NCBI GenBank assembly: GCA_947184155.2
Contig: CAMXCT020001751.1
Span: forward strand, 17,501 to 81,500
From: Cladocopium goreaui
Taxonomy: Eukaryota; Sar; Dinophyceae; Suessiales; Symbiodiniaceae
Direction of reading: 5' to 3'
DNA length: 64,000 bases
The notes beneath the pieces were generated by a model. It was not told the DNA's origin and did no database searches. It saw nothing but the letters and a program-made list of their open reading frames with translations. Below are positions 378 through 27,474 of this stretch, in pieces. Each line of letters begins with the position of its first letter. The first letter of the stretch is position 1. Made by a program: the position numbers and the translations under genes.

Positions 378-481
378 TCCTGAAATGGGGGTACCCCCAG
401 TCATTATCCATTTTATTTTGGGATTTTCCATGAAATAAACGCTCTATTTTGGAGTACCCCCCCATTTCAGGAAACCTCCAT
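378..481. repeat. Inverted-repeat element, GGTTTCCTGAAATGGGGGTACC ends
   Basis: The sequence around 378-402 (core GAAATGGGGGTACCCCC) recurs as its reverse complement at about 453-478, separated by roughly 50 bp that include a TTTCCAT core. Related, more degenerate copies lie near 33455-33555, 37335-37365, 53230-53310 and 58745. The shape is that of a short non-autonomous hairpin element. Confidence 0.6.
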
Positions 482-488
482 ATGTAAC

Positions 489-560
489 TAATAACTAACA
501 TAGCCATTGAAAATTGCCATTTACACTTGATTTACCCATTAAAAATTAAGATTTTCCATA
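489..560. repeat. Partial MITE-like hairpin (family A)
   Basis: This stretch has the family-A core (CATAGCCATTGAAAATTGCC and a later TTTTCCATAG) but lacks the outer TACCCTCTGGT ends, so it looks like a decayed copy of the element that is intact at 6264-6366. Confidence 0.5.
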
Positions 561-562
561 GT

Positions 563-630
563 TCCCCAGACAGTGTGGCCACACTGAAAGGTTCTTACAG
601 TCACAGTTAAGGCCCAGTGTTCAATCGAGG
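563..630. repeat. Dispersed repeat, inverted copy at the right edge of the window
   Basis: Bases 563-620 (CAGTGTGGCCACACT, then GGTTCTTAC, then GTTAAGGCC) match, in reverse complement, bases at about 63900-63945. The adjoining 105-bp array motif is also matched near 63780-63845, so both edges carry the same family in opposite orientation. Confidence 0.65.
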
Positions 631-643
631 TGGTATCGGGGGC

Positions 644-1122
644 GTCTGGCATTTTCTCTGTAAATCTCCGCACAAAATGCCTCTTGTGACATGTCCATGT
701 GCATTTCGACTGCGCAGGCTCGCGCAAAATGCTGGCCGCGGGATTTTGCGTCCAGCATTTTCCCTGTAATTTTCCGCACAAAATGCCTCTTCTGACATGT
801 CCATGTGCATTTCGACTGCGCATGCTCGGGCAAAATGCTGGCCGCGGGATTAGCGTCCGGCATTTTCCCTGTAAATTTCCGCACAAAATGCCTCTTGTGA
901 CATGTCCATGTGCATTTCGACTGCGCAGGCTCGCGCAAAATGCTGGCCGCGCGATGAGCGTCCGGCATTTTCCCTGTAATTTTCCGCACAAAATGCCTCT
1001 TCTGACATGTCCATGTGCATTTCGTCTGCGCACAAAATGCTGGCCGCGGAGGTGGTGTCCTCGGCCATTTTCCATGTCTCTTGTGACGTGCCCATGCATT
1101 TTCGACTGTGCAGGCTCGCGCA
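644..1122. repeat. 105-bp tandem repeat, about 4.5 copies
   Basis: Units start at 644, 750, 855 and 960 with a degenerate partial fifth unit. Each contains GGCATTTTCCCTGTAA, GCACAAAATGCCTCTT, ACATGTCCATGTGCATTTCG and CTGCGCAGGCTCGCGC. The open frames through it on both strands are products of the repetition and are not called as genes. Confidence 0.85.
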
Positions 1123-1136
1123 TCCACCACAGCATC

Positions 1137-1235
1137 AGCATTATTATCATCATCATCATCATCATCATCAGCATCATCATCAACAGCAACATCACCATCA
1201 CCATCATCATCATCATCACCACCATCATCATCATC

Positions 1236-1266
<31 letters not shown>

Positions 1267-1365
1267 TCATCATTATCATCATCATCATCATCATCATCAC
1301 CATCATCACCATCATCAACATCATCTTCACCATCATCAACATCAACATCACCATCATCAACATTA
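1137..1365. repeat. (CAT)n / (ATC)n trinucleotide array
   Basis: About 230 bp of nearly uninterrupted CAT/ATC repeats with CAG, CAA and CAC variants. The poly-His, poly-Ser and poly-Ile frames here are repeat artefacts. Confidence 0.95.
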
Positions 1366-1506
1366 TAATTTTAATACATTTTCCTTTGACTTCCCCCACA
1401 CTGTTTGGGGTCTCTTGCCGTTTTTTGGTATTGGAAACCCTATGAATCCACTGTTCGATGCCCTAGAATCTTAGAACGACAAATGCTCCGCTGAACGCTG
1501 GCGGAG

Positions 1507-1560
1507 GTGGTCGATGCCGAAGTGGACCGCGAGAGGGGTCGTATCAACATCGTGATGGAG
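1507..1560 (+). CDS. Kinase exon: strand before the hinge and hinge (INIVME)
   Basis: Follows GGCGGAG and ends at GAG|GTGAAA. It reads [18 protein letters not shown] in phase 0, with GC-rich codon use unlike its surroundings. The last residues match the IxMVMExG hinge of Mps1 kinases; methionine sits at the gatekeeper position. The next exon supplies AGDMDL. Confidence 0.78.
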
Positions 1561-4500
1561 GTGAAACAAAACGGGGGACCGTTTGCCGTCAGTAAAACCG
1601 TTGGATTTAAGGAGCAAAAACAGGGGGACATTGAATTCAAAGCGAGAATATCTGGGATTGAATAATGAGAAAAATGGAAGTTCATCTTCGAAGATGGTTT
1701 CTGAACTGGTGAACCGCAGTGTTTTTTTGTCTCGGCCACTTTGGCAGAAAAAAAATAGGTGTCTTACCAAAAATCAGCTTATCTACGTCTACAACATGTT
1801 GTGGAAATGGATCAAGCCACCTCATGGTTGATGCGATTTTTGTGGCTAGCCCCCAAGGATTGCAGATGAAAAGGCCCCCCAGACAGTCAAGTTGGTCTGG
1901 GTATCGTTTACGATTGGGCAGACCACAGGCTTTTGGGGTGTGCTATTTGGTTGATCGTCAGTCAGTTTAGTCATTATCCATTGTGGAGAATCATTGTCAA
2001 CCAACCAGCAGAAGTGGATGGCAAAGGTTCTTGATTTGCTTGTACATTGGTATTGTCATTCAACCACACGGTTGATGGCCCAACTGTATAGAGGACTTAT
2101 CTCACAACCATGGGGATTTCGGAACTAGCATGAGGACGTTTTGTTGGAGATACACTAATACACTGCAAGATAAGAATCATTCCAACCTCCCTCTTTGGGT
2201 ATCTTTGGATGGTGGTTTTCCCGCGAGAAAAACCGCCTTGTTTCCGTTCCACCTCCTTGTTGAATTGTTTTGGGGTCTCCGGTCTCCCAAGCCAGTCAAG
2301 CGAGCCACCAAACGACCATGGTGAGTAGGGACGGTCCCTGAGAGTGCTGTTGAAATGATTATGATAACAAGCCGGTACTTTCTAGCCTCAGGGTCAGCAT
2401 GGGTCAGCCATTCTTCCAATGTCTTCAGAGTCCTCCCACTCTGCCAGCATGGAGATTTTTCGGTATCCATCATCCTGAGATGATGTGGGCGAACCCACCC
2501 ATGTAATCCTGTCATGATTGGATCTATTTACGACTTGTATATGGCCTATTATATATACACAGTACATGTATGTAATGTAATGTAATGTAATGTAGTGTAA
2601 TGTAGTGTAATGTAATGTAGTGTAATGTAATGGTATGTAATGTAATGGTATATAATGTAATGGCATGTAATGTAATGGCATGTAATGTAATGGTATGTAA
2701 TGTAATGGCATGTAATGTAATGGCATGTAATGTAACGGTATGTAATGTAATGGTATGTAATGTAATGGTATGTAATGTAATGGTATGTAATGTAATGGTA
2801 TGTAATGTAATTGTATGTAATGTAATGGTATTTAATGTAATTGTATGTATTGTATTGTATTGTACTGTATTGTATTGTATTATATTGTATTGTATTGTAT
2901 TGTATTGTATTGTAATGTAATGTAATGTAATGTAATGTATGTATGTAATGTAACGGTATGTAATGTAATGTATGTAATGTAATGTAATGTATGTAATGTA
3001 ATGTAATGTAATGTAACGTAATGTAATGTAATGTAATGTATGTAATGTAATGTAATGTAACGTAATGTAATGTAATGTAATGTATGTATGTAATGCAATG
3101 TAATGCAATGTAATGCAATGTAATGTAATGTAATGCAATGTAATGCAATGTAATGCAATGTAATGTAATGTAATGCAATGTAATGCAATGTACTGCAATG
3201 TAATGCAATGTAATGCAATGTAATGCAATGTATGTAATGTAATGTAATGTAATGTAATGTAATGTAATGTAATGTAATGAACTTTAATGTAATGTAATGT
3301 AGTGTATATATGTATGTTTAATATATTTGTATTATAATTTATTATAGTATATTATATTTTGTTCTATTGTTTTCTATTATATCATATCATATTATATTAT
3401 ATCATATTATATTATATTATATCATATCATATCATATTATGTTATATATTGTACAATCGGTATGTATACACTATGTATATCGTACACAGATCTACAGACA
3501 TCACCAGCCGACCCCGGTGCCTTTCCGCCAGTGGCTCCCTTCAGGCCGGGGACATGGACCTGGGCCGTTTCTTGCAGTCACAGCCGAGGCATCTGCGGCC
3601 GGCTGCGGAGATTTGGAGATTTATATTTTTCTTATTGTTAACGAATATATCATTCTTGCTATGATTAGTGTTTTGATATATAACTATATATTTTTGTAGG
3701 GGGGCTATAACATGTCGTAAGATTGAAGCTAGGGTCGAAAAACACTTACTTCTTGGATTGCCCATCGAAACAAGATGCCTTTGGGGTTGGAAACAACAAA
3801 ACTTCGGTGCAACCAGCCAGATGGAAGTCGCTCGATCAAGTTGTGAGACAAGAGAAGAAAAGGAAAAAACTGAAACAGACGCCTGTAACCACCATCCACC
3901 ATCAAGTACCCTAACATAGCTGTGGAACACACATAGTTTTCCTAGGAAACTGATCTACAAATGCTGTGGGATTTTCCAAATTAACGGTTGCCCATATGAG
4001 CATCGTCAGAAACCTTTGTATACACTCTACGAATCTTTACGAAGAGTTGTGTCATATGTGACTGGGTCGCTCAAGCAAAACCCTGGGTTTCGGAAGATGG
4101 ACCAAGCCACTTTTGCGAAATAAAGCGCGTAAGCTCCGGCGTAAGCATTATCATGCCTTGCGGCGTAAGCAGTTCCTATGCGGTTTAAGTCAAACCTATC
4201 AGCGTAAGCTTCGCGTAAATCATTTTATGTACAAGCTAAGTCAAAATTGTGGTGGCGTAAGCATAGCATAAGGTCTCGAGTAAGCAATGTGATGCGACAT
4301 AGGCTCGTAATGTCCATATTGGTGGTTTTCCACTGAATTTTGGTACCGTACACCAGCGTCAACAATGTCAGTTTTCGAAAATCCTATTGTTCTAGTTGCC
4401 ACCTAAGACTGTTTGGCAGGTGATGTACATCCTCCTCCGCATCACCACCACCATCACCATCACCATCACCATCACCATCTCCATCACCATCACTATCACC

Positions 4501-7500
4501 ATCATCATCATCATCATCATCACCATCACCACCACCACCACCACCATCACCATCACCATCACCATCACCATCTCCATCACCATCACTATCACCATCATCA
4601 TCATCCTCATCATCACCATCACCACCACCACCACCACCACCACCACCACCACCACCACCACCACCACCACCACCACCATCACCATCACCATCACCATCAC
4701 CATCATCATCATCATCATCATCGTCGTCATCGCCATCGCCATCGTCATCATCATCATCATCATCATCAAAATAATAACCATCATGATAATGATAGTAAAA
4801 ACAATCGTCATCATGATGATGATCATCATGATGATCATCACAATACTGACAAGAAGCATCAGCATTTATCATTATTTTACATTTCTGCCGCCATGGAGGT
4901 TGACGCTGATTCAAATCCAACATCTTTGGAAGCAGATGCTGGAGGCGGTGCAGGTGGGTTGGGTTGGGTGGATGGTACTGGGGGGAACAAAAGAAGCTGC
5001 AGAGATTGCCATGAAATTGAAAAATTGGAGAAACCAGCGAAAAAAAAAATATATATAGTTATTTTATTTGCTCTATAAATATTGTTCTATAATTACTGTC
5101 GTATGAATATTGTTATTTTTATCGACATGAATTTGATACATCTGATACACGAGAAACATGAAAAACTTGGATCAAGCAATCGAAACAAGGAGTTCTCAAA
5201 ACAGAAATGTGGAGTACTCACTGAGAAGTTTGGGGTTTATTGCGAAGTGGGAATGGAAGCAATCAAACTGGGTCTTAAGATGGCTGACTCACACAGTCCA
5301 TTGTCCAGGACGCGTGAATTTCTTAATTTCTTTGTTGGTCCCTGTATTGCATTTTGTTTTGGGCAAGCAACTTATCTTTGGCTCGAAATGATTTTGCATG
5401 GGTAATACAGGTGCAAAGACTAATCTTATCTGCTGCTGTAGTTGAGTCAAACACTCAAAACCGGTAGATCTATTCCATTCATGTCTACAAGTCAGGGCAG
5501 CACCTTGAACACGGACAACTTGTGATGGGACAACCCATTACATGCCTTACTTACCTGGCAGTTCAAACTGACCACATTGAGCTTGTGACTGACCATGTGA
5601 AGGGCTACTGTAAGTGAACTTACAAGCTAGCAATCTAAACTGAGAGAGGCAATTCCACAATTTCTCATGATGTTGCTATTACGACTGGCCAATTGCCAGG
5701 TTAGATTACAACAGGAAAAACTAGGAAGTAAGAATGTCTCTTTGAATCTCTTTGCAAGGTTGATTGACTGATAGAGGAGCGACCCTTGATTTTTTTAAAA
5801 AACCGCAAGTGATCCTCAGAATTCCCCAGATATTGGATTTGTAAAAAAAAGAGTGTACTCAAAATCCAGCTGGGCTTAGATTGGATAATCGTTTCTTCAT
5901 TTTGCATTGCCACTAATTTTTGACCTTAAATCCCACACGTTTTGACAAACCCTCATGCTGTTTGTCTTACATCCGATTGATATCGACTATACAGTGAGAA
6001 TGAACCCATTATATGAGCATAGAAGTATACATAAATTTGACATAAACTTGACATGAACATTATTGCTGATGACCCTATGGATATTAATTAATATGTCTAT
6101 TGTCTATACACGCATCATGTTCCCCTTTTTTAGCCTTTGGACGGCCTTCCAGCATCTCCCAGCATCGCAAGGTCATCCATCAGGAACGCATTGTGCACTC
6201 AGTGGGAGCCCGAGCCGTGGTGGTTTCAAGTGACCCTAGCGGCACAGTTCGATGTGGAAAAATTACCCTCTGGTAAGCTAACATAGCTATTGAAAATGGC
6301 CATTTATAGTGGATTTTCCATTAAAAATGGTGATTTTCCATAGCTATGTTAGTTTACCAGAGGGTAACCATGAATGTAGATCATTGTCCAAGAAACTGGA
6401 GATGTTCCATTGGTCCATCGATGTTGGGAAATGCCAAATGGGCATAGCCATTTTGAACCACAGAGATGGGATGGATGTTTCCAAGCTGCAAAATTTGGAA
6501 GATGTTCACCTGCTGGGATGAGTTTACTGGCTATTTCACAGATTACCATCTGGTTATTTAACATAGCTATTGAAAATGATCATTTATAGTTGGTTTTCCC
6601 ATTAAAAATGGTGATTTACCATAGCTATGTTAAATTTCCCCATGAATTTCCAGATGTCCCAGTCGGTCAGCTTGGGCTTCCCAGTCGATCATTTCTCTTT
6701 CAGAAAGGGACGCTCTCAGTCCCCACGTTTACACATGTCTGGATGGATGAGGTAAAGATAAATATAAAGAAAAAAAATCAGTAAAACAATGCTACATATA
6801 TGGAATTTGTACAAATGAATATATCATGTTACAAAAAAAAATGATTGAAGGACACCTGGCCATAACCTAATTTCCAAATCTCACAGGAAAGAAGGAGCCA
6901 CACAGAAAACAAACGAAAAAAAAAAAATTGGGCTGACCCCCCCCCCTCCCCTAGATGGGCTATCTTGGCTATCTTGGTGGCTCTAGGTGGCTCTCTGGGC
7001 CATCTTGTCTGCTACAGCCTCATATGGTATTCTTATGGGACTTCCACTGGGTTCTTATGGGATTTCTATGGTATGTCTATGATATTTCTATGGAATTCCT
7101 ATGAGATGTCTGAGGGAAATCTATGGTATTCTTATGGGATTTCTTTGTGGTTCCTATGCTATTTCCATGTTATATCTATGATATTTCTATGGGGATTTCT
7201 GTGGGATTTTCCATGATATGTCTATGATATTTCTATGGGGTTCCTATGGGATTTAAACAGGATTTCTATGGTACTTCTATGATATGTTCAGAGGATTTCT
7301 TTGGGAATTCTATGGGATTTCCATGAGGTGTCTTGAGAATGTCTATGGTAGTTCTATGGTATTTTCTATGGGACTTCTATTGGATTCCTGTGGGGTTCCA
7401 TGGTAGTTCTATGATATTTCTTTGGGACTACTATTGGATTTCTATGGGATGCCGATTGTATTTCTATGGGATTCCTATGGGGATTCAAAAGGATGTCTGT

Positions 7501-10500
7501 GGGATTTACATTGGAATCCTATGGGATTTCCATGATGTTTCTATGATATTTCTAGGGGATTTCTATGGGATTTCTGAAGGGATGCTATGAGAATTCTATG
7601 GTATTCTCATGGGAGTCCCATTGGATTACTATGGGGGTTCTAAGGTGTCTTTGTGATGTTTCTATGGGATTTCTTTGGGATTACTATGGGGTTCCTATGG
7701 CATTCCTATGGGAGTTCCATGATGTTTCTATACTTCTATGGGATTACTATGGGATTCCTGAGGGAATTCTATGGGATTCTTTAGGGAATTCTATGGGATT
7801 CTTTTAGGATTTCTTTGTGGGATTCCTGTGCTATTCCATGTTAATTCTATGATCTTTATATGGGATTTCTGTGAGATTCCTAAAGGATTTCTATGATATT
7901 TCCATGGGATTACTATGGGGTGCCAATTGAAAGGAAGTTGAAACCATTTCAAAATAAATTCAAACTAAAGTGAAAAAACAACATCCAAACATTTTTTTCA
8001 AGGGGTAGTCCATGAGCAAGAGATGAATCAAGACCAAAGGTTTCCCAAAAAAGATGAACTTCAGCCAACCAACAAAATCCATGAATGACAATGATCTTCA
8101 ATAGTATGTTTGTTGTGGTGGTCCTCTATTGTGTCCAGCTTTTTTTTTGGCAGTAAACATTTTCCAAAATCATGTTCTCCTTCCCTTTTCCTTTGCTAAT
8201 ACGTTTCTCTTTTTTACTTTCTTAGCTCATTCTTTTGGAATTCTCAAAATGTCTAAATGAAAAGTTTTTTCCTAAGGGTGAGCTTCAGCCAGCCAAGGGA
8301 TTTCCATGGGATGTCTGTGAAATTTATTTTGGATTTCTTTGATATTTCTATGGTATGCCTATTGGATTTCTATGGTATTCCTATGGAATTTCCATGATGT
8401 TTCTATGATATTTCTGGAGCATTTCTATGGGATTTCTGAAGGAATACTATGGAAATTCTATGGTATTCTTATGGGACTTCCAATGGATTCCTATGGGATT
8501 TCTATGGTGTTTCTATGATGTTTCTATGATATCTCTATGGAATTTCTATGGGATGCCTGAGGGAAATCTATGGTATTCTTATGGGATTTCTTTGTGGTTC
8601 CTATGCTATTTCCATGTTATATCTATGATATTTCTATGGGGATTTCTGTGGGATTTTCCATGATATGTCTATGATATTTCTATGGGGTTCCTATGGGATT
8701 TAAACAGGATTTCTATGGTACTTCTATGATATGTTCAGAGGATTTCTTTGGGAATTCTATCGGATTTCCATGAGGTGTCTTGAGAATGTCTATGGTAGTT
8801 CTATGATATTTCTATGGGACTTCTATTTGGTTCCTGTGGGATTCCATTGGTATTGTTTAATATGATGTTTCTTTGAGACTAGGACTAGAAACTTAATCAG
8901 TGATAAATAACTAGAAAAAAATAGTAAAAAGCAGCTAAAAATCACGTAAAAACTGGGGACCCACAGCGTCCCACACTCTTCTCTTTAAGGGACGGCCATC
9001 TGTGGAACGAAGGAATGAAGCAATGTGGTGCCCCAGTGAGGTAAATCGCATTCAGTTGGAGTTCACATCACTCCAATTTCCCGGGAGGGTTTATGGTAGA
9101 TATACCGAACTACTTTTCATGGGGGTTATAAACCAACGTTCACATCACTGGGTCATCACCTTGGTAGCCATTTGAGCTTCGGTAGCGTATTCACGTCTTT
9201 CCTTACTACCGCGACGCTCGGGAAAAGTTTCGAGCAACCCATCTGGATGGCGCCAGCAACAGAGACGACGCCACTCAGTGGCTGCGAGGACCTAGCGAGC
9301 ATCAGCGACAGGGCTGTTCGACATGGCTTCATCCAAAAGGCAGGGTGTTGATCGAACGGATCCTTTGTGAAAACCCGGTAAATAGGGAAATATAGCCCAA
9401 ACATGCCCAAACAAATGCATTTGTTGCACGGTGTCCAGGATTGCCACTGGCCATTTTATAATTAGTCAAGCTACATGTGTTCGACATATCGGTGAGTCTA
9501 TCAGGTTTTGGGCATTTTGGGAGTGCAGTTGCTCACCACCTGCGTGGTTGCGGGACTCATCACCATCTTTGGTGAAAAATTGGTGGTTCAGAATCCGAGT
9601 TTCTTGATGGATTATTAGCCAATATTAGCCATACGCTTTGACCGACTGTTTGATAGTTTTGGGGCTAGATATGGATTTTTCACCCAACCGTACTACTTTT
9701 TTTAAAGCAGGAGATCAACAAGCCACCAAGGTTTGGTAGTGGTGTTGATGGCCATGTCGGCTGTGACGCTGTTGAGTGTTCACTGCGTCTTCATGTGCTT
9801 TCGGGAGACCATGAGGAAAAGTCCGCAGAACTATGTCTTGCTGGCACTCTTCACGTTGGCAAAGGGCGTCTTCTGATTGGTGGTTTCACATATTTTTCTG
9901 TTGGAACATGGTGGTATAACCCAATTTATTGACTTTCTTCAAAGGCCAATGATGATAAAGCATCAAATTTGGGCATTGGGGACACCCGATTTTAAGACAA
10001 ACACCCAACTATATCTATATCATTCTATATCTATATATATATTCTATATATCTTAGAAATGAGATGATTATCCCACTTGATTATGATAGCAGAATATGGA
10101 TGGTTATCTCCCACTTAACTTCCATTAAGAACCTATCCGCACAGGGAAAATCACCATTACTTGTTGCTTGTTTAAGCCCCAGTTTTGTTGGTCAATAACT
10201 CCCAGTGTGTGGATTGCCTGAAACCAGCAGGTTTTGCTGGGCTTCATCTGTCTGCAGTACACCATCCAATCTGTGTTGGTGCTGGTGCTGATAACAGGGA
10301 TTGTCACGTTGGGATTGATGCTTTTCGCTTTCCAGAGCACATATGATACTCGGACGTTGATGTTTATAGTAAGCTCAAACATGATTAGAGCTACAATGGC
10401 CACAAAGGCAAGGTTCATTTATTTTCAGTTGGATTTTACTTTTCTACTGGTATCTTTTTTGAAGTTGCTAATAGCTGCCATGGTCGATTTTTAAGACTCT

Positions 10501-11076
10501 CATTCAATGAGCCACTACTTCCACAGGTTTGCTGGTTCAATAAAACTTAGACAATATATATATATATGTGTGTGTGTATAAAATATAGAGCAATATATTC
10601 AATATAGAACATTACATACAATTTAAGTGTACAGTATATATTATATATATGATATGCACGGTTAAAAAAATATTTTCATGCAATGTCCAATGCATCATAC
10701 GTAGTGTTTGAACTGATAATATATAACGTGTGATGTGTATGTAAGATGTGATATTTACACAATATAGCAATCCATAGTTTATCATTATAGTATATATATA
10801 TATATATTAAATATGTATATATATATATATTAAATATGTATGTATGTATATATATATATATGTAATGTAATGTAATGTAGTGTAGTGTAGTGTAGTGTAA
10901 TGTAATGTAAAGTATGTATACATATACATATATATATATAGAGATATATAAATACATGTTGTATGTGCATATATATATATATATGTATGTATGTATATAT
11001 ATAGGGCAAGCGCCGTGATGCTGCCGACCCCGTTTTAAGGGGGAGGCCTGCACAGACACGACGGACACCCTACGTG

Positions 11077-11107
<31 letters not shown>

Positions 11108-14100
11108 TACCAGGAGCCAATGAAACCATGAGTATAGGGGTTGCAAGATTGTGAAAATGTTGGTTACGACCAAAGGTGTGTCCAAAACACTGTTTTTGAC
11201 CATGGCATTGCGAATCAAGCATCGACATATCCGGGGTTTCGGATTGGCAGAACGAAAAAGTGCAATGGCCTGCAGGTCCAACGGCAGGTTTTGAAACCTC
11301 GAACGGACTCGCGGAAGCTTGTGGAAGCTTAGGATTGGGCCCCGAAAATCCTTTGTCTGCGCCTCAGACCAAAGGCCCCACTTGTATCTGCAAAAACATG
11401 CAGTTGTGACGCTGTTGATCTGTTTCTCTTCATGTATCTAGAACCGGTCATCCAGGCAATGACCTGCATCGGGGAAAAATTATTTGCGGGGCGGTGGGAG
11501 GACGTCGCCTTGGAGGAGGTGCACCTATATGCACACTTGGACCTGTGCACCTGAATCGCTTGCCTCCCGGCAGGGACTCCAGGCACAGCTGTTTGCTTTG
11601 TCAGCAAGGCATTGAAAGTAGGGTGACTGCTAATATCTTCCTGACAGGACTATGTCCTCCAGAACGACGCCCTGCTCCACGAGTTGCAGTGGAGGCCCTT
11701 CAGTTTAGACATTCCATCGTGTTGTGCGATAAGAAATGCAGGTATTGCTTGCCTCCTGTCAGGTGCCTTTGACTCCCCCCACTTGCGCCGATTTCAAGAC
11801 TTTGAAAAGGAGTTCGGCAAGAAGAAGGCGACGGTCTGACAACACGTTTCAAGAGTCATTCGTCGTGCTGGTTGTGCAGGCACCGCACCATCGCGATAAA
11901 ATTTTCTTTGTCGACGACAACGTCCGTCCGCATGCATATGCATCACCCATGCACACACTGCACAGAGCCCCCTCCGTCATCATCGCTGTCGCTTAGGGAC
12001 TCACCACGTGTGAGACGAGCTGGCGCAACAAGATCGCGAAGGAGCGTGCGAAGGCAAGACTTCAGAATTCAGTTTGCTCTCGTGTTGTTGCACCCCTCAA
12101 TGTTTGAGGCGGCAATTTGCACGGCACCGCCATTTTATGTAATATAGCCATGTTTAATATAGCAACATAGAATACGATATATACGAAAATATATGCCAGC
12201 TTCATTTAGTATGATATAATGTGACATGAAATGATGTGATATACAACGTGATATGATATAGTAAAACGTAATGTAATATTCTTGAACATACGGTAATATG
12301 TTAAATATATTACTATATGATATTGCATATACTGTAATGCAGTACAAGATAATATTGTTAAAACAAGTATAATATATAACATAATACAATATGATATAGC
12401 ATGATATGCAACAACATTAAATGCAATATGATACTTGCACTTATTCTTAATGCACCTAATAGTTGACCGTGCAAACTCAGGATTTCACGGGTTTCCTGCC
12501 CTACATGTTCGCTTGTTGCCTGGCTCTGGTGCTGATGGGTTTGTGCTTAGCCATCTCAGCACGTCTTGGAGCTGCAAGCACTGGAGCCTTCAAGACGCTG
12601 AACATCGTCTATGCCTCGATGGGTGCCCAAGTCATGAGAAAACCAAGTTTCAAAACATGCTGATGTTTCATAGGAAAACTCATGGTTTAGGGGTAAACAA
12701 CCAGTTGTAAATGGGGTGAAGGAACTAACCCAAAACATAGGATACAAACTTAGGTACCGGTTTGTTTTTGCAACTGAACAAGGGGATTGAAACACCAAGG
12801 TGTTTAGCATCCCATGAAATGAGGGGATGAAACCGAAAACCGTTCGGAGGGTCAAAACCAGGTGCTCTTTTCTGCTCCTTTGGCATTATCCTTCATACCC
12901 AGATGATTTTGGGCGACAAGAGCAACAAGTACAGACACTTGAATCTGTTTTTTTTTTTGCGATTTCCTGCGTGGCAAATCAGAAACGCATAAATGGGGCA
13001 TCTATGGGGCAGATGTTTCTATTGTTACTTTTCAGGATGGACCATTTAACTTCAGCAAATCCAGGCGAAACCTAGTTGATGTGGATTTGTCCAAATGGCA
13101 ATTTTAGTGTGGAACATGATGGTAAACCACTGAATTTTGGGGTGCCTTATTTTCAGATAAACCCATGTCCTGTTCTTGTTGGTTGATTGATGAAAAAAGT
13201 ATACCTCTCGGTTTTCACAACCAATTGACAAGTGGTAGCAAATGGTACCGGTAACAGACCTTTTTTTTTGTCAATACCATTCTGGGTAACATCATAGGTT
13301 TAAGCATGTTTAAGCAACATCCTTCAACATTCAGGGGGTCCCGCGCCGATGCAACTAGGTACTTCACCCTATTTAGCAGGTATTCAACTCACTAAAACCC
13401 TGGTAGAGGCTATGGTTGCGACCCCGTTTTGCAACTGAACATTGGTCCTTTTACCACTTGTTGATTGATGAACATAGAGGGACTACGTCACATTCTCACA
13501 TCTATTTTAAGTAAACCCAAATTATGTAAATCATTATAATCCCTAGAAAATATGGGTATTCTACTGGCCCCAAGCCTCCTTCACTTCGGCTGTGTCACAA
13601 ACCCTTGGCGTTGGTTATACTACCCTTTATATCAATTGGGGATTATCCGAATTGGCTGAGAATTCCGAGAATTCCCACATTTAATTTACGCTCTCCTTTT
13701 CTTTTGGGGATGGTGAAAATGATGAACATCACCATCACATTCGGAGTTCTCCCCACCAAATTTTCAGACAAACCCACATTTTTCGGCATATACCATCCCA
13801 TTATATATCATTATATCATATGATATCTCCATAGAATGGTATGAGCAACAGCCATTGGTGATATTGGTGACCGCGTTGAAACCCAGGATATCGCCTGGAC
13901 GACTATTGTATGGCCGCCATCGCCCTGTATGCCGACATGGTCCACCTCTTCCAATTCCTCTTGCGGCTCTTGGGTCAGCGGAAATAAGGTCGCCGAGTCC
14001 TTTCAGAAATGGATACGGCTCGATCTTTCGCGCGTCGCAAAAGGAATCACTTTGGAATGAGGCAAAAACAAATGGTGATTCAATGGTGATCATCCCTTTT

Positions 14101-17100
14101 GGATGAGATGCATCTTTGATATCATGTGTGCATGTATGTGCCATATGTGTAAATATACATATTTATCCAGCAAATTTGTGGTCCCTTTTCTGCGTCACCT
14201 TTTGAGCTGTATCTTAATCGGTGTGGAGAGGAGATTCCCAGCCGTTTCATGGTTAATCGAGCCTCAATCCTTTCCTGAATGTCTTTTTGGCTATTCGCAT
14301 CCTCATGTTTCGTCCAAAAGCACTGCTCTGTTTTGATGAACGAAAACAAATTCAGCAGATGGACCTTTGTGCGATGTCAGAGATGTTTTGACCCACGGCC
14401 AACGACCCAACCATTCCTTTCATGTCCGCAGCCAAGCATCTAGCCACGCAAAAAGCTCAGCTGCACTCGACATCTCTGCGCTCTAGACATGGCCCGTCTG
14501 ACCGCTGTCTGCGTTTTGGCTGCTGCACCTTGATGGAAGTTGATGTTTTGGGTGTTGTGAACCGATGAACCTGAACCATTTCAAAACCAATTTTTCGTAG
14601 TTAATCACCAGGTTTCATGGGGATCACGGGGACTCTGGGAGGCTTGTGAACAAGCCAACTGTTAGGTGGTTTGGATGAGCGCTTTATCAATGTTTCGATT
14701 CTTATAAAGATGGTTTGCGGGTATTGGAGTTCATGTCCTTCTCTTTTGGTATTCTTTTGGTAGAATAGCTCGGGATGTATGAATTATGCACATTTGCAAC
14801 TGTATCTGCATCGTTTTCTATATGTCCTATATATACATATTGCATGCAATACCGGGTTGAGATTCTTGCTGATAGACAATGAGTTTTGACAACGGCTCAT
14901 TCATATGTATTTATATATATATAGATAGCGTAACCCCCAGCCATAGAAACGGTTCAATTTATCCAAATCCTTTTTCCTTTTCCGTTCAGGAGTCTAGGTT
15001 GGTTAATCATTTTTTTTTTCCAAATCCACAGACATCCAAAGATATCCAAAGATTCTGGAGTTACCCTCCAGTAAATGAACCTAGACCCTGGCATTCATCC
15101 GGGTTGGAAGATTAGTTTCCACAAAAAAAAATGTGACATTTTCAGTGTCAAACCTTTTCATTTACTGGAGGGTAATGGATTCTAGTAGATTCTAGTGTTG
15201 GTATCAACGTGTTACATAATGATGCATAATGTCTAAAAATAGCGGCCAAGGGTCACTTGCTGCGTATCCATTCTGTTCCATTTACGAAGTCTTGACTGGG
15301 ATGATTGCCAATGGCAAAATGGGAATGTCTATTTTTAGTGGACTAACATAATGGTACACATCCATATATGTAGTAGATTCTAATGTTCATTTACACCATC
15401 ATTAGTCACTATTAAAGTCACCATTCAATTTACATGACCACAACAACCGAGGCCTTGTGCCTTCTGCGAAGCCTTGCCTTTGTCCCTGCGCCTCGCAACG
15501 CAGCCCCATCTGTGGAAGTGGCTGCCGGTGCTGCGCTGATGGCAACGGCACCAATGGGAGCTGATGCCTTTGTCTTCAAGGGTACCTTGGAGTCCCCGTC
15601 AATCCTATGTACTGTACATATATCTATCTACCTAGCTATCTAGCTATCTAGCTATCGAGCTATCTAGCAATACATCTATCTAGCTATCTAGCTATCTAGC
15701 TATCTAGCTATCGAGCTATCTCGCAATACATCTATCTAGCTATCTAGCTACCTAGCTATCTAGCTATCGAGCTATCTAGCAATACATCTATCTAGCTATC
15801 TAGCTACCTAGCTATCTAGCTATCGAGCTATCTAGCAATACATCTATCTAGCTATCTAGCTACCTAGCTATCTAGCTATCGAGCTATCTAGCAATACATC
15901 TATCTAGCTATCTAGCTACCTAGCTATCTAGCTATCGAGCTATCTAGCAATACATCTATCTAGCTATCTAGCTACCTAGCTATCTAGCTATCGAGCTATC
16001 GAGCTATCGAGCTATCTAGCTATCTAGCTATCTAGCTTCTAGCTATCTAGCCATCTAGCTATCTAGCTATCTAGCTATCTTGCTTTCTATCAATCTAGCT
16101 ATCTAGCTATCTAGCTATCGAGCTACCTAGCAATATATCTATCTAGCTATCTAGCTACCTAGCAATCTAGCTATCGAGCAATCTAGCTATCTAGCTTTCG
16201 AGCTATCTGGCTATCTAGCTATCGAGCTATCTAGTTATCTAGCAATCTATCTAGCTATCTAGCTATCGAGCTATCTAGCTTTCGAGCTATCTACCTATCT
16301 AGCTATCGAGCTATCTAGCTACCAAGCTATCTAGCTATCTAGCTACCTAGCTATCTAGATATCTAGCTATCGAGCTATCTAGCAGTATATCTATCTAGCT
16401 ATCTAGCTACCTAGCTATCTAGCTATCGAGCTATCTAGCTATCTAGCTTTCGAGCGATCTAGCTATCTAGCTATCTAGCTATCTTGCTTTCTATCAATCT
16501 AGCTATCTAGCTATCAAGCTATCTAGCTATCGAGCTATCGAGCTATCTAGCTATCTAGCTATCTAGCGTTCTAGCTATCTAGCAATCCAGCTATCCATCT
16601 CGCTATCTAGCTATCTAGCTATCGAGCTATCCAGCTATCTAGCAATACATCTATCTAGCTATCTAGCTACCTAGCTATCCAGGTATCTAGCTATCGAGCT
16701 ATCTAGCAATATATCTATCTTGCTATCTTGCTATCTAGCTACCTAGCTATCTAGCTATCGAGCTATCGAGCTATCGAGCTATCTAGCTATCTAGCTATCT
16801 AGCGTTCTAGCTATCTAGCCATCTAGCTATCTAGCTATCTAGCTATCTTGCTTTCTATCAATCTAGCTATCTAGCTATCGAGCTACCTAGCAATATATCT
16901 ATCTAGCTATCTAGCTACCTAGCAATCTAGCTATCGAGCAATCTAGCTATCTAGCTTTCGAGCTATCTGGCTATCTAGCTATCGAGCTATCTAGTTATCT
17001 AGCAATCTATCTAGCTATCTAGTTATCTAGCAATCTATCTAGCTATCTAGCTATCTATCTAGCTATCTAGCTATCTATCTATCGAGCTATCTTGCTATCG

Positions 17101-17672
17101 AGCTATCTAGCAATCTATCTAGCTACCTAGCTATCTAGCTACCTAGCTATCTAGCTATCTATTTTTCTATCTCTTCTTTTTTTAAATCTAGCTATCTAGC
17201 TATCTAGCTATCTAGCTATCGATCTAGCTATCTAGCTATCTATCTTTTTATCTTTCTAGCTATCTAGCTATCTAGCTTTCTATCTATCTTTCTTTCTTTC
17301 TATCTTGCTCGCTATCTATCTTTCTATCTATCTATTTATCTAGCTTCGATCTATGTATCGATCGATCGATCTATCTATCTATCTAATCTAATCTAATCTA
17401 ATCTAATCTAATCTAATCTATCTATCTATCTATCTTTCTTATAGCATCTTCTAGCTATCTAGCTATCTAGTTATCTAGCATCTAGCTATCTATCTATCCA
17501 CCTAGCTATTTATCTACCTACCTAGCTTTCTAGATATCTATCTATCTATCTAGCTATCTAGCTATCCAGCTATCTAGCTATCCATCTAAATATCTATCTA
17601 TCTATTTATCTATCCTATCTATCCTATCTATCCTATCTATCCATCCTATCTATCCTATCTATCCTATCTATC

Positions 17673-17704
<32 letters not shown>

Positions 17705-18441
17705 AGATCTATCTATCTATCTAGCTTTCAATCTTTCTATCTATCTATCGAGCTATGTAGCTTTCTAGCTTTCTAGCTATCTATCTATCTATCCATCGAT
17801 GTATCTAGCTATATAGCTATCTGGCTATCTAGCTTTCTAGCTATCTCGCTATCTATCGATCTATTTTTATCTAGCTTTCTAGTTTTTTAGCTTTCTAGCT
17901 ATCTAGCTATCTAGCTATCCAGCTATCTAGCTACCTAGCGATCAAGCTATCTAGCTATCTAGCTATCCATCTATTTATCTCTCTCTCTCTCTCTCTCTCC
18001 CCCTGTCTATCTATCTATCTATCCATCTATCTATTTATCTACCTATCTAGCTATCTATCTCCCAAACTATCTAACTATCTATCTATCTAGCTATCTAGCT
18101 ATCTAGCTATCTAGCTATCTAGCTATTTAGCTATCTGACTATCTAACTATCTAGCTATCTAGGTATCTAGGTATCTATTCATCTATCTATCCATCCTTCC
18201 ACCTAACCATCTATCTTTCTATCTTTCTGTCTATCTATCTTCCTATCTACCTACCTATCTACCTCCCTATCTACCTATCTATCAATCTATCGATCTATCG
18301 CTCTATCTACCTATATATCTACCTATCTACCTATGTACCTATTTAAGATCTATCTATCAACCTACCTACCGATATCTCTTTTTATCTATCTATCTATCTA
18401 TCTATCTGTCTGTCTATCTATCTCTCTATCTATCTATCTAG

Positions 18442-18473
<32 letters not shown>

Positions 18474-18635
18474 TTATCCATCCATCTATCTATCTATCTA
18501 CCTATCTATCTATCTTTCTATCTATCTATCTATCTCTGTCTATCTATCTATCTATCCTATCCTATCCTACCCTATCCTATCCTATGCTATGCTATCCTAT
18601 CCTATCCTATATTATGCTATGCTATCCTATCCTAT

Positions 18636-18677
<42 letters not shown>

Positions 18678-21600
18678 CATCTATATATCTATCTATCTAT
18701 CGATCTATCTATTTATTTATCTATCCTATCTATCCTATCTATCCTATCTATCCATCCTATCTATCCTATCTATCCTATCTATCCTATCTATCCTATCTAT
18801 CCTATCTATCCTATCTATCCTATCTTTCCTATCTTTCCTATCTTTCCTATCTATCCTATCTATCCATCCTATCTATCCTATCTATCCTATCTATCCTATC
18901 TATCCTATCTATCCTATCTATCCTATCTATCTTATCTATCTTATCTATCGTATCTAGCTTATCTAGCTTATCTATCTTATCTATCTTATCTATCTTGTCT
19001 ATCTTATCTATCTTGTCTCTCGTATCTATCGTATCTATCTTATCTATCTAATATATCTTATCTATCTTGTCTATCTTGTCTATCTTGTCTTTCTGATCTA
19101 TCTTGTCTATCTTGTATTGCTTTTCTTTCTTATCTATCGAGTCTATCTTATCTATCTTGTCTATCTTGTCTATCTTGTCTATCCTACCTATCTTATCTAT
19201 CTTATCTATCTTACCTATCTTATCTATCTTATCTATCTATCTATCTACCTATCTATCTATCTATCCATCTATCCTGTGGATAAAAAGGGTTGATTATCGA
19301 TAGTTGAAACATAATACAATTGATTACAAACTAACCAACTAACCAACGCTGGGTTGGGGGAATCATCCCCAGTTGGATGTGGATGATGCCCGGCATGGTT
19401 CACCAGAAAAACCTTGGTGATTTTTCATGGGCGATACTTAAAGTAACTATAATGGTACGCACTTTTTTATGGGTATGTAACAGGATATAGTCAACAGTAT
19501 AGGATACCTTCAATGTGAACCAGCCACAAGGGGAGATCAAATGAAGAAAATGGGATTGAACCAGCAACTAGTCAACAATGAAGGGTATCTGGATGGATGC
19601 CAAAATGGTTTTCGTGTGGTAACATGTTTTTTTTGGTGGAGATTCATGGGATATGATATAGCCAACAATAATTGATATATGCTTCTGTCTGAAAATGGTG
19701 AAAACAAACGCCCAGATAACAACTTTAAGATGGACCCAGTGATGATTTCTCCAGTGGAAACTTCGGGATTCTTTTGGGGTCGCCACTGGAAACTTTCAGG
19801 ACAAACCCGGCATGGCGGCTATGGCTGAACTCATCATGGGAATCATGTCACGGGAAATATATTAATCGGGACAGCGGTAGTGTTGAACAAGTGTTGAGTG
19901 TGAATTTCAGGCTTGTGTGATTTCGGAGTGATGTGATTGCCTCATGTTCATCAATACCGAAGGATTTTCAAAAGGTTCCTCCATTCTAACGCCTGGATTC
20001 CCTTCGGTTTTTCCTCTTTACAGCAATCCTAGCTGGGTCGGGTTTCATATTGTAACAGCTGGGTTTAACATCCATCAACCAAAGCAACTGAGTGATTTTC
20101 ATCCTAAGACCATTCAAGCGTTGGAACATTGGATACCAGCGAAAATGGGACTTGATATGTGAATTTGCCTTGTTTCTTGGACAATCTCCCCATATCTCCC
20201 CCCATGCTTGTTGGTTGCATTCCACATTTTCGTAATCCACTTTTTTGTTGGCTAGGTCTATATATTTTGTTGTGAAATCATCAAATTTGAACTTGGTGAA
20301 CTCTCCAGCCATCCTGAGATATCCTGAGGCAAGGAGTACTTTGACGTCTTCTACGGCATCTAAGCTGAATTTGGGGTCTTCGAGACGAGAGAATTGGTAA
20401 GCTGTGATTTGTTTGTGGGATTGATTCCGTCTATCAAGCACGCATGTTCAATGCATATCATGTGAACCTGTGGATACGTATATATATATATATATTATAT
20501 TCTATACATACACACATTTTATATACACTAATGCCAAGTTCGCATTAATAACCACCCATAAGGTCTGAATCCATGAGAAGGTTTTCACCCCCAAACAATG
20601 ATCAGCAAAACTAAAAATGGGATTCATGAGATTTAGTATGAGAAAGGCTTTGAAACCATTGGTTTTTCAATAGATTTCACGGGATTTAGTATGAGAAATG
20701 CTTTGAATCCATTGGTTTTCCAGTAGTTTTTGAATCCAAACAGTAGGATTTTCCAGAAGGGTGTTGTTGAATAGGGGGTGACCAGTGACCACCCATGTTG
20801 ATTAATAGGGAGGGAACAACCCAAGGTAGTATTGCCATTTTGTTTTTGAATGTGGGTGTTGATTAATGCGGGGGGGCTTATTAATATGAATTTACAATTT
20901 AGTTTAAAATTATCTTAACATATCTATGATTATTAATGTTCTACTGTTTTTCACCGTAGATGTTTGTTTTCTGATGTTCGCACACATTTCGGCGCACATA
21001 TGAGACATCAACCAGATGATATGTCTGGATCAATTTAATTTCCAGCATCCAGATCATTCAAATCATTCAGATCATTGAAAGTTCGCTTCCTGCCAATTGA
21101 GATTCCCAAGTTTTGTATGAAGCGCTTTGGTAAATTTCGCCAGAGATTTTATGTATGTATGCATATATATATATTGCAACCATTCAAAATTGCTAAATGA
21201 GACATCCCCAGAGGGACACAAACCGGGCCTTAGATGATGACAACAATTACATATGTTACATGTTTGTTGGTTGGTTCAATCCCAATTGCACTATATGTAT
21301 GTATACAATATTATATACAGACAATAATATATATAATATACATAATATATATATATATATATGTATATACATATATTATTATGTTTTATCAACCATCATT
21401 TGTGTGTTCAAAGCAAGGTTTGTGAAGCTCCATGTGTTGTTTACACGGTTTTGTAGCAACACGATTCATGTTGACAACATTTTAAACTGGAGTTTGGTTT
21501 GCACATGTTTGCACTATATTTGTACCACCGCATGTAATGAGGTGTATATGCATATATATATACTGTATATACATATGTGTGTGTTGGAGTTTGATTGTGA

Positions 21601-22947
21601 TTATTTGTATAATTGACTTTGAATAAACTCCAACCATCTCCAACCAACCAACAGCATGCATAGTTGGTTATTCACCAAATGATGTATAGTTGGTTGACAT
21701 CATGTGTGTTATTCCTCTTTCGTGTTACTCCGCATTTGTGTTATCTCCTCTGTACATATATTGAGTGTTCAATACCCCTGTTGGTTGAGGATGATTATAG
21801 GGGGTTATGTTACATATTGGGGAATCCCGTTCTGATCCAACCAGTATTTCACCGAATGACGTTGCGAATTTGCTGGCGGTTCTGACCGGTTTTTGCTGGG
21901 TTGTACTCAGATTGAACCATGAAAAATCTGGGATCGATTCATTCTGTGTTGCTGTGGTACTGTGGTACATCAATTATCTCAGATCAACCGAAAAAAACCA
22001 GCAATTTTCGGAAGAAGTTTCCACCAGCCATTTATATCCATTGCCCATAGGATCCATGTATGCTATATATGGTAACATTTACCATCAACATACCCCAAAT
22101 GTTAGCATATATACCAGCACCATGGATCCTATGGGTTGATGATTGGGGATTGATATTGGGGCCGGAAATCCCGAGGCATTGAGCCTTTGGCCTGGGCCTT
22201 CTGCGGATTCGTCACTGGGATCAAAACCTGGCCGCAAAAAAAAAACACAACCTGGTTATGACGAACAGTTCGCCATGGTATAGATGGCCCATAGAAATAG
22301 ATGGTTTACCTATTATAAATGGTGATTTTCCATGGCTATGTTAGTCATAACCAGGGGGTCTATCCATAAAAAAAACTAAGTCATAGCTGGTGAATGGATG
22401 TGAATATTTCCCCACGATGCTTAATAGCTGGTAGGGTTTTTCATGTACTTGTACCATGGTATATTTTCCCCAGGGACACCATAGCTGAATGGATGTGAAT
22501 ATTTCCCCAAGGTGATGAACGGTCATGACGTAACGGGTAACGATGGTTCTATGTTGATTCATTCACCAGTTAGATACGAAAGTCATAGATAGCCTGTATC
22601 AGTTTTCCCCAGGTAATTTCATAGCTTTTGACCCATCCCCTAATATGGATGGTGGTCGCATGAGGATATCATGGGACATATGTTACTAACCATGGGGGGA
22701 CACATGGGATATGATCTAATCAACAAATTTTACCGGTGCCACTGGGTAGGTGTCACTGGCGTGACACGCTGTGCCTATTGGGTTAGGTGATTGTCTACTA
22801 CGGCGCAGTGCTGAAGAATGCTGCCACCAAGTCTCTCGGCGGAAAGAGTCCGACTGTAGGACCTATAAAGACCTGTGACTCCAGAAAAATTGACAGGATT
22901 TCAAGTGGTGGTATCCATGTACTGGAAATCCAATCTGAACACATAGA

Positions 22948-22993
<46 letters not shown>

Positions 22994-25900
22994 ATATGTA
23001 TATATATATATATAGATATGCATATATATATTATATATATATATATATACATACATTACTATATATATATATATATATCTTAATATATATATATATTTAC
23101 ATACATATATATATATATACATATTAAATCATGTTAATATATATGTATATATACATATATATTATATAACATATACGCACCTATATATATATATATATTA
23201 ATATACGTATATATATATATTATATGCATATATGAGCATATATCAAAATATTTCGATGTCGTCCACCAGACAGTGATGATTTGTCCAAGGTACAACATCC
23301 CAGTTGACAAGACCAGATCACCCAAGGTGGGAGGATTCCAGGGCAAGGAGCCCGAGCAGTGTTCAAAACCCTGGTTGATGGCTGGGGATTACACTACAAT
23401 ATTATAGATAATGGTGCATCATAATCCCCAAATTGATATCATTATATTTAGATATCATCTGATTTTGATAGATTTTGATGCACCAAATTCTTGAGCGTCG
23501 GATTACAATGATTACAGATTATACGTCGTGATTTGAAAAACCGTCGCAGTTTCGGGCGCCCAGTAGCTCGACAATCAGCTGGCTATTCAAATACATATCC
23601 AAAGCTCAAATACATATCCACAATATTCCACATCAATATACTTACTTGGTCTTTAATACTTCTCCAAATACTTGATGGTGGTTTTGTCACATTGATCATA
23701 TTGCACCAATTGTTGCATCCATACTTTTTCAATTGACGTTCCTCTTACTTGATAGCTAAACACTGTTTGCATGCCCATAGGATGGTTGAGATGATCAGGT
23801 AGCCCTTCTTTTTCAACACCCAAATGGACTGCAAAAACAGTGGGTGATATTCGTGTGTCTTGGAACAATTAATTCGCAACCACGTAATGTACGATCTTTG
23901 TATTGATGCTCTTGAAAGCTGATACTGTCTGTGCGTGTTGAAACGACTGGGAACGGATCGATTCAAAGCAGGGTGGTGTTCTATTTTTTTTTGTCGGATC
24001 TCTTGTTTTATTTCAAACCGACTGCAGTACTTGTTGTGAAGTGGGTGGCTCAACAATCCGCCAGAAAGGGTCGCTGTTTCAGATCACCAGGAGATCGAGA
24101 ACAGTGAGGATATGGAGAAATTCTACAAGCCCAGCTAAGCGCGTGTTACTACCCTGGCTCAGTGGGTCTCTTTGACGAGAGGGGCCTTGTACTGAGCTTG
24201 GGCGCTTTTTTGAGGTCGTGGCTTTCCCAATGTGCCTGGCTGTTGGTGTGCAGGCCAGCTGTTTAAATTGGGATCCGGGAGCTCGACAGAGTTCCCGGAG
24301 CGCCAACCTGTCCGTCGTGTGCGGAAAAAGGTGAAGCGATGGCATGAGAGTGTTGGGACAGGTAGATACAGGTCCCCTCGAAAGGCATGTCTCAGAGAGT
24401 CTCGTTCCTCTTTTGATCGTGCTGCTGATGATGCTGCTGCTGCTGATGATGATGATCAATTCCCTCGTAGCAAACCATAATCTCAAGGATTTTTTGTCGT
24501 GGCTCCTCGACCAAGTCCGAGAAAGCTTACCAGTTTGCTCACCCATTCCCTATGGATGGCAAGGTTGTTGATTGGATAGATCCTGGCTGGCGAATACATC
24601 CTGTCCCACTACATCCGACTTCATTTCATGAAGGAGTGTATATCTGATTATTTTTTATTTTCCATAATATATGGGACAATCCTTCCCATTGACTAATATT
24701 TTTCAATATGGTTAAAACCACCAACCAGTATGGTTCACAAGCTTCGCCATCCTTTATCCCGGTCCTTCAGGGCAGCGCACCAAGGACTTGAAGCCTGGCA
24801 ACTTTCTGCTGATCAACGGGCGGTTGAAGGCACGCTTTTTGAAAGCACGGCCCGACAATCTATGTTGTCATGGAACATGGTATAAACAATGTCCAAAGGT
24901 AGAACAGGCCAGACCAGACTAAAATCGGAATTGTAAGGATATCATTTCAAGATACAGTCATTAAGGGTGACTTTGGCAAGGGTTTGAAGATACGGTTCAT
25001 TGGGATGATGTGTGGGGGTCATTAGATGACCGACCACAAATGTCAAGGAAACGATGAACAAACGCATTTGCCTGTTTTCATTGGCTCTGAAACTTGCTGC
25101 TGAAACCGCGGTTGGGTCAACTTGAAACGCTATGACTTTCGCAGGTCATTGACTTCGGCATTGCGAAGCGAATCTCCAACGACACCACCAACATCCAGCG
25201 CGATGCATCTGTTTGGGATCCAAAAAATTCCGGTTGCTGGGACAGCCGTGCTCAAAAAATGGTGGAGGATTTGAGAAACCAGGAAGTTTTTAGGGATTCG
25301 AAGGGATAGTCTCAACAAGTCTTGGCCACACGTTTGATGACTTTTTGTGCCATATATGATCATACCAGGATGTACAAACGGGTCTCAATTAGGCACCCCT
25401 TAAGGGGGGTAACCATTAGGCACCCCTTAATTTTTAAGGTTCCAAACTAACAGATAATGAGGTATTCATTGTAATATGTGTATTTTTCTTCGATTTCCCC
25501 ACGTTTGCTTCCAGAAATGCGTGTCATTTCGTGTCATTGCCGTGTCGTGTCGGTCATAAGTGGTCACGAGTTTTTTGGAGAAATCAAGAAAAACATGCGT
25601 GTCATTCCGTGTCACTGCCGTGTCGTCGGTCGGTAGGGGGTGTCCAATAAGCACCCCTTAGGCAAACGGGTGTCTAATAAGCACCCCTTAGAAACGTGTC
25701 GGGTGCTTTTTGAACAACCCCTGCGCGTGTCATGTCGTGTCGATTTTGACTAGTTTTCTTGAAATTTGGGAACATTTTACATCCGACGCGAAAAGAAACG
25801 CATGCATTTCTTCTCGCCAAAAATGAAGTCGGGTGCACCACAGATGCAACGCGGGTGGGATTGGAAGATTTTGGGTTGGAACTCATCATTTTCTGGTGTG

Positions 25901-27442
25901 CCATCTCCATGAACGCTAAGGGGTGTCCATTAGGCACCCCTTAAGAATCTCAATTTTTTGAAATTCATTAGGCACCCCTTTGAACGTGCTGTTATATATA
26001 TATATATACGTATATAAATATATATATATATATTTAAATATCCTGTTCATAATCGACGTTGCTTCCTGTAGTAAAGGGATGTATATAAATGGGTTGTTAT
26101 ATATTACATTATCACTGCTAGAGATTTGTCTATCCAATGTGTGGAAATAAAAGTACAAGTGCAGGTCCCTGGTTTGGTTTGATGTGCTCCATTGTAGGGC
26201 TAGTGCGCTTGATTGGCTTTGATAGGGGTACCTCCAAGGTAACAAAACTCCAGGATCGAATGACCATCCTTTGAGTATTTTGGTGATTGACCCGCCGCTG
26301 GTTGGTGGATTGATCGTTAAGCCTGGGTCGTTCCTGGGATGAAGATTCAAACAATCGCCAGATTAACAGTTGCCCAGAACGGTAAGATATGCTCAAGGTT
26401 CGAGGTCCATTGAGGTCGTTGTTCGTAGCTTTCATCCCTAACATGTCTCAGCTGTCCTTGTATACAATATGCATACACATTCATACCATATCAATCTATA
26501 TCATTCTATATCATATTGCATATACCATCATATACCTACTGTATATAATAAGTAATTCGGAATTGATCTGTATCATTTCAAAATTGATCCCAAGCTCTGC
26601 CGGATTCTGCTCCAAACCGCCAGGTGGGGACCTTGAGTTACATGGCACCAGAAGCCGTGAAACAAGGACAGTGGGTGACCCTAGCTCTCCGTGGAACGGT
26701 ACCGGCCGGCCGAAGGCACGGTTCGGCACGAGAAAGGATGGCCAAATTGGGCCACTGAAGACATCCCGAAGTTCGGGCCTCTATGAAAGTGTCATAAAGT
26801 TTCACCATACCCAAATATGTTGTTTGTTTTTACGGAAAGGCTTGTTGCCAGGGCCGAAACTACCAATTGTTTGTATATTTTCATGGTTCATTTTGTAAAT
26901 ATATTTATTGATATTTATTGGCACCCTCCAAGCATCTTCATTATTGTTGTGTTCATTTGCTTGGCGTCCATTCTTTGTTGCTATTGCTTGGTACTCCAGA
27001 AAATGGATTATGTGGGATTTTTCGCCTGCTAAAAAGCCAACACATCCCAACACTATTCGAAAACTAATTAGGCATCTTTCATCACATCAACATTATCGAT
27101 TGTTGGGAGCACACATAATTAGTAATTAGCCCTGACGGCCCTTACACATCCAACGCTTATTTGGAGCACTTCAAAAAAGACTTCGGGTCATTAAAAGCAC
27201 GCCACTTGGAGGTGACACAAGTGATCTTCCGCACCAAGGTTGAAACTGGGTCGCGCGTCCGACATTTGGTGCCTTGGTGGCCGGTGCAAAGTACTCCATA
27301 GAAGGGGCCTGTTGGAGCCCAACGATCTGACAATTTGAAACTCATCATTTCATCTGGTAGTTCCTCACTGATATATATATATATATTATATATATTTATA
27401 TATTATGTGTAATTAAATATAAAATACATGTATACACATGCA

Positions 27443-27474
<32 letters not shown>

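Follow-up and report, generated by a model that had tools for sequence, protein, structure and literature searches.

A probable case of two genes nested on the same strand within one intron of an Mps1/TTK-type kinase gene in the dinoflagellate Cladocopium goreaui

A stretch of 64,000 nucleotides from the dinoflagellate Cladocopium goreaui (assembly GCA_947184155.2, contig CAMXCT020001751.1, positions 17,501 to 81,500 of the forward strand), hereafter the window, very probably holds a genuine host/nested arrangement of the nuclear genome. A gene of the TMBIM/Bax-inhibitor-1 family and a gene for a plastid protein lie there head-to-tail, on one strand, within intron 4 (of those seen) of an Mps1/TTK-type kinase gene, an organization that poses a puzzle of RNA processing. 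The assembly analysed amounts to 1.166 Gb in 6202 contigs, and the window is part of the contig named here C1751. An initial annotation had placed both genes inside a single kinase intron, in the orientation of the kinase, and this is indeed what is found: all three genes are on the + strand and the intron runs exactly from 6202 to 24784. The anatomy, the reading frames and the splice sites are read directly from the DNA, and the left junction recurs on a second contig.

The host gene is visible as 10 exons of the + strand. Joined in phase, under the guidance of homology, they encode 159 amino acids, from the hinge to just beyond helix F (Pfam Pkinase, E-value 2.5e-37). Exon 1, the first seen, codes for beta4-5 and the hinge (1507..1560), exon 2 for helix D (3545..3588, with a GC donor and an end set by alignment with relatives), exon 3 for helix E (4899..4953), and exon 4 ends with VHS (6172..6201, donor GT at 6202). 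Intron 4 then extends over 18,583 nt and holds both nested genes (6202..24784), before exon 5 begins with DLKPGN (24785..24829, acceptor AG, first exon base G, donor GC). There follow exon 6 with DFG and the activation segment (25145..25210), exon 7 with APE (26624..26670), exons 8 and 9 with helix F (27239..27268 and 27845..27893) and exon 10 (30170..30228, its 3' end approximate), which was absent from the exon list of the initial annotation. As that annotation had described, the hinge, helix D and helix E exons lie upstream and those of DFG, APE and helix F downstream, in order and in phase; the join that it proposed between 6201 and 24785 has a GT donor and an AG acceptor, and homologues are continuous across it. 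In order, the introns measure 1984, 1310, 1218, 18583, 315, 1413, 568, 576 and 2276 nt, the eight others than intron 4 thus spanning 315-2,276 nt. None of the 10 exons shows a stop, a frameshift or a lost splice site. For a 46-residue piece across the 6201/24785 junction the best matches in PDB are TTK chains (2.8e-13), the next family being CDK7 (1.6e-6). Catalytic loop (HSD), DFG, APE and helix F are all present, with an activation segment like that of the family, and judged by its sequence the host is an Mps1/TTK-type kinase, differing from the known members in that helices G to I were not found here, nor the N-lobe in the readable sequence.

Between the two parts of the kinase stand two complete genes, each with its start and stop, as had been claimed. 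The TMBIM gene (9247..13987, +) has 7 exons (9247-9339, 9505-9598, 9731-9867, 10231-10344, 12481-12622, 12862-12921 and 13887-13987) and encodes 246 amino acids from ATG to TAA. Its product matches Pfam Bax1-I over its full length (E-value 5.6e-28, 98.6 bits for a cut-off of 34.1), so that its likeness to the TMBIM/Lifeguard family is that of the whole protein, with no notable difference. After 501 bp begins the plastid-protein gene (14489..24138, +), again with 7 exons (14489-14521, 15452-15581, 20329-20355, 22176-22210, 22787-22830, 23290-23347 and 24091-24138, the donor of exon 1 at 14521 being uncertain by a few codons), which encodes 124 amino acids from ATG to TAA and stops 646 bases before kinase exon 5. 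Both genes are therefore wholly contained in 6202-24784. Exons 1 and 2 of the plastid gene were evident first, and the other five were found via the full-length relatives P0132, P0133 and P0135, with lengths of 124, 124 and 129 amino acids, respectively, for 124 here. P0135 comes from Cladocopium goreaui itself; the name symbB of P0132 presumably points to Breviolum minutum, and P0133, from another dinoflagellate, bears an MMETSP label that we take to be that of a transcriptome project. At the N-terminus of the product a signal-like stretch is accompanied by an AFVPAP motif; this motif after such a stretch is, we assume, typical of dinoflagellate plastid targeting. The protein has no Pfam match at E 0.1 and no credible match in PDB, where the best (E 0.0023) is a urea transporter without any single passing stretch.

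Relatives of both genes are present elsewhere in the genome: weaker ones for TMBIM and, for the plastid protein, further gene copies on contigs C5682, C1739 and C6103, with residues 49-106 in one stretch on C5682, which thus has fewer introns than the nested copy. Within intron 2 of the nested plastid gene, kilobases of simple repeats (ATCT-type, ~15600-19300) were seen in parts. On the minus strand at 19986-20447, an open reading frame of 153 codons is antisense to plastid exon 3 and has no Pfam match.

The kinase sequence is sharply partitioned around the nest. A search for homologues found 576 proteins, of which 120 were listed; parts of 8 among those 120 were then compared with the + strand at E up to 10, minus-strand matches being dropped. 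Parts preceding HSD gave 27 matches in 1-6201 (best 5e-7), 10 in intron 4 (best 0.59) and 5 in 24785-31000 (best 0.65), and parts following HSD gave 50 matches in 24785-31000 (best 1e-9), 5 in 1-6201 (best 1.3) and 7 in intron 4 (best 4.5). With the parts of these 8 homologues, neither helix D, helix E or VHS sequence within 6202-24784, nor catalytic-loop or later kinase sequence upstream, was found at E up to 0.5. The consequence of this clean split at HSD is that the halves are not duplicates of each other. P0010, P0012, P0013, P0014 and P0103 run uninterrupted through VHS-DLK. The nearest listed homologues are one protein named mph1, from Symbiodinium sp. CCMP2456, and unnamed proteins, which we read as dinoflagellate Mps1; some have a source label merc (carried by P0013), which presumably designates a metatranscriptome catalogue. 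When the identity of each half was ranked over 113 of the 120 listed homologues (the 7 not covering both halves being set aside), P0013 was the nearest protein for the part preceding HSD (80.5%) and the second nearest for the part following it (92.4%). In a comparison of divergence with five hand-picked close relatives, the means before HSD are 0.72 for the host against the relatives and 0.71 among the relatives themselves, and after HSD 0.91 and 0.90. On this comparison both kinase halves are conserved as they are in these relatives. The kinship ranking and the five-relative comparison, as well as the flank-repeat and two-contig comparisons given below, used 3597 as the end of kinase exon 2, not 3588.

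A second contig, C3147, bears on the left junction. It is a near-identical copy of window positions 1-9628, with kinase exons 1-4 then TMBIM exons 1-2, and it ends just beyond the latter. In alignments of more than 300 bases it shows a 7.2 kb block at 96.6% identity to C1751; the six exons are identical at 379 of 379 bases, and the introns, outside two repeat stretches left out of the count by choice, are alike at 3558 of 3576 aligned bases (99.5%), with 19 gap columns. C3147 could be either an allele or a recent duplicate. Because it repeats the order from kinase exon 4 to TMBIM, it supports the left junction and makes a mis-join on that side unlikely. For the right part of the nest the assembly showed no second, near-identical copy, and a search with 24000-25000 brought up no other full one (40 of 703 candidates scored, very common words skipped). 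As to repeats shared by the edges of the nest, which might be the trace of an insertion, none was found between the left and right flanks at E 1e-3; the left flank has two matches with the interior of the nest (63 and 47 bp, one inverted-repeat element) and many with itself. Just within intron 4, at 6264-6370, there is an inverted-repeat element of ~105 bp (CTAACATAGC ... GCTATGTTAG, flanks TACCCTCTGG/CCAGAGGGTA), with many copies on both strands of the genome, which looks MITE- (miniature inverted-repeat transposable element) or introner-like. The contigs C1739 and C6103, whose arrays match, also resemble a near-identical pair.

The kinase has a paralogue. On contig C1401, at ~77.6-88.2 kb, a second Mps1 gene displays N-lobe, catalytic and C-lobe pieces within ~10.5 kb, with exon boundaries taken from protein matches. 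Its exons round HSD are split after DLK, not after HS, and no nest was seen between them; since they are only ~0.28 kb apart, the nest is a feature of one copy of the gene. Farther along C1751, beyond the window (75677-91450 and 98502-104699 on the window's scale), there are very long open frames. One, of 5258 codons, is copia-like, with CCCH zinc fingers, an aspartic protease and an RVT_2 match below the Pfam cut-off; the second codes for an RNase H.

Several observations weigh against a functional host with genes nested in its intron, and they have to be set against what other explanations would predict. The 86 kb of contig that follow yielded none of helices G to I: the best match there has E 0.35, against E 1.7e-6 for the last kinase exon of the paralogue in the same search, and genome-wide they gave weak places only, the best of which (E 0.46) is the paralogue. 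Nor was an N-lobe exon found in the readable upstream sequence, part of the upstream reading N. In these searches for the kinase ends, stop-free, chosen stretches of the + strand were explored and chosen matches counted. The host gene may continue beyond the contig, or it may be truncated. It might, then, be a broken or dying kinase, the exons of which persist while no full kinase is made, the nested genes lying between relics. The missing ends would fit this explanation, as would the retroelements downstream, and the existence of a second Mps1 gene means that the loss could be tolerated. By contrast, 10 exons have kept their frame and splice sites, and the divergence of both halves is no greater than among the five relatives; comparison of C1751 with C3147 has no power to reveal selection, the probability of zero exon change being 0.19. 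We consider a broken host unlikely, if by no means negligible. It would be compatible with the nested anatomy, and it would remove the puzzle of RNA processing. The splice sites themselves invite caution: in the three genes 22 of 22 acceptors are AG|G, a score that is partly circular as some sites were picked with this rule in mind, and the 21 donors comprise 13 GT (62%), 6 GC and 2 GA, making GT commoner than the 24-37% seen in Polarella/Symbiodiniaceae (PMC10666404). The sites do agree with a dinoflagellate nuclear gene: AGG makes up 96-97% of acceptors in Polarella and Symbiodiniaceae (PMC10666404), where GC and GA donors are abundant (PMC10666404, PMC9412976); among the AG dinucleotides of intron 4, 20% are followed by G.

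Other explanations would do away with the nest altogether. The scaffolding error that the initial annotation considered would have either misplaced the block of TMBIM and plastid genes between kinase pieces or misjoined the right half of the kinase. On the left it is made unlikely by C3147, which displays the same order over 7.2 kb, although repeats occur in that flank too. The right junction rests on one contig, with an interspersed repeat of ~80 bp in intron 4 just before kinase exon 5 (24650-24739) that occurs in at least 40 other places, 39 of them at 94-99% identity. Yet the window is devoid of N, the contig goes unbroken through kilobases of simple repeats, as an assembly of long reads might, and the collinear exons of the plastid gene span a long simple repeat. 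An error would moreover need a chance meeting of kinase halves agreeing in strand and phase, and it appears improbable. An old tandem duplication, with the N-terminal fragment of one kinase copy to the left of the nest and another kinase copy to its right, had also been envisaged. Gene duplication is frequent in dinoflagellates, C1401 carries another Mps1 gene, and the kinship of the short half before HSD seems loose: P0010 and P0075, of another Mps1 type, outrank there several proteins of the closest type, and the order of the 113 homologues differs between the halves (Spearman 0.30). This alternative nevertheless fails to account for the absence of any convincing kinase piece within intron 4 or on the wrong side of it, for the normal conservation of both halves and for the place of P0013 among the two nearest proteins for each; the partition search leads to rejecting duplicated halves, and we regard the duplication as very improbable. 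Finally, the two halves might be separate transcripts joined by trans-splicing. Dinoflagellates do trans-splice a leader, and the order on the contig is compatible with such a process; with both halves on the same strand and contig, and an ordinary GT donor facing an AG|G acceptor, it is unneeded, and it is hard to give it any credence.

If two genes are nested in the intron of a live kinase gene, as we favour, expression of the three must be reconciled. The kinase exons would be cis-spliced across 18.6 kb, intron 4 being removed whole, and the nested genes, read off that strand too, would each yield a separate messenger RNA with a 5' end and a 3' cleavage of its own. Each 5' end would probably come from trans-splicing of the leader to an acceptor a short way before the ATG. 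One RNA molecule could then give rise either to the kinase or to the nested messengers, unless the nested genes have their own transcription starts. Without the two gene bodies intron 4 would measure 4.2 kb, and the block most likely entered, or became caught in, what had been an intron of ordinary length. Dinoflagellate genes are arranged in long one-directional arrays, and some authors presume that these are transcribed as units, with addition of a leader (PMC11071213), even though polycistronic expression is apparently rare in dinoflagellates according to a review (PMC11453091). Carried to its end, this would mean a single same-strand RNA with two exclusive fates, in which the mitotic kinase is obtained by cis-splicing from 6201 to 24785 at the cost of the nested genes, and leader trans-splicing with cleavage gives the nested messengers and truncates the kinase, the first exon base possibly separating the two types of 3' site. 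We find so elaborate a scheme improbable; were it true, a spindle-checkpoint kinase would be linked by it with a cell-death regulator and with a protein of the plastid. The leader acceptors that can be guessed before 9247 and 14489 read AAAAG|T and CTCTAG|A, neither being AG|G, unlike the 22 modelled cis acceptors; leader acceptors of dinoflagellates are described as having no simple consensus beyond the AG itself (PMC2488372).

In the genome there are 172 exact copies (81 forward, 91 reverse) of the 21-base dinoflagellate spliced leader, for none of its reversed control, which marks the genome as that of a dinoflagellate. In the window, no relict leader was found: the 21-mer has no match at up to 3 mismatches, and its 15-mer has 2 matches for 2.2 expected. 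The best + strand match, 14 of 21 bases at 9162-9182, lies 85 bases before the TMBIM ATG and is not significant; because a place at 6442 matches equally well, and 15 bases match at two places of the minus strand, it is no evidence of a relict leader. An AAAAG/C motif is met 52 nt past the TMBIM stop and 188 nt past the plastid stop, which, with a mean spacing of 339 nt, is uninformative.

Nesting of this kind is less surprising than the initial annotation implied. In two isolates of Polarella glacialis, 4898 (8.4%) and 3359 (6.5%) genes are nested in introns, mostly one per host and up to 18 and 24, with support from full-length transcripts, in a study where the gene caller was allowed inside introns longer than 10 kb (PMC7245778). 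The locus is thus a further case of known dinoflagellate intron nesting, sharing with those of Polarella the location of genes, sometimes several, in introns of multi-exon hosts; species and host differ, and as the main-text passages of that study on nesting give no strand, nesting on the same strand is not comparable by number (PMC7245778). The literature search found no paper on this locus and no strand-resolved counts of nested dinoflagellate genes. Mammalian host/nested pairs, to our knowledge, do not involve spliced-leader trans-splicing. With the pair H13/Mcts2 of mammals, also a gene within a gene, the locus shares the issues of intronic polyadenylation and transcriptional interference (PMC13309782); here two multi-exon genes occupy one intron. 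The locus provides a well-delimited test case of whether dinoflagellate arrays of same-direction genes are transcribed separately or together, since under joint transcription the host product would here be made at the expense of the nested ones, or the reverse. The paralogue on C1401, where no nest was seen, and C3147, the second contig of the locus, are natural controls. As a minor observation on the assembly itself, its contig C1, at least 7.2 Mb long, has many intronless kinases of bacterial type and is probably a bacterial companion.

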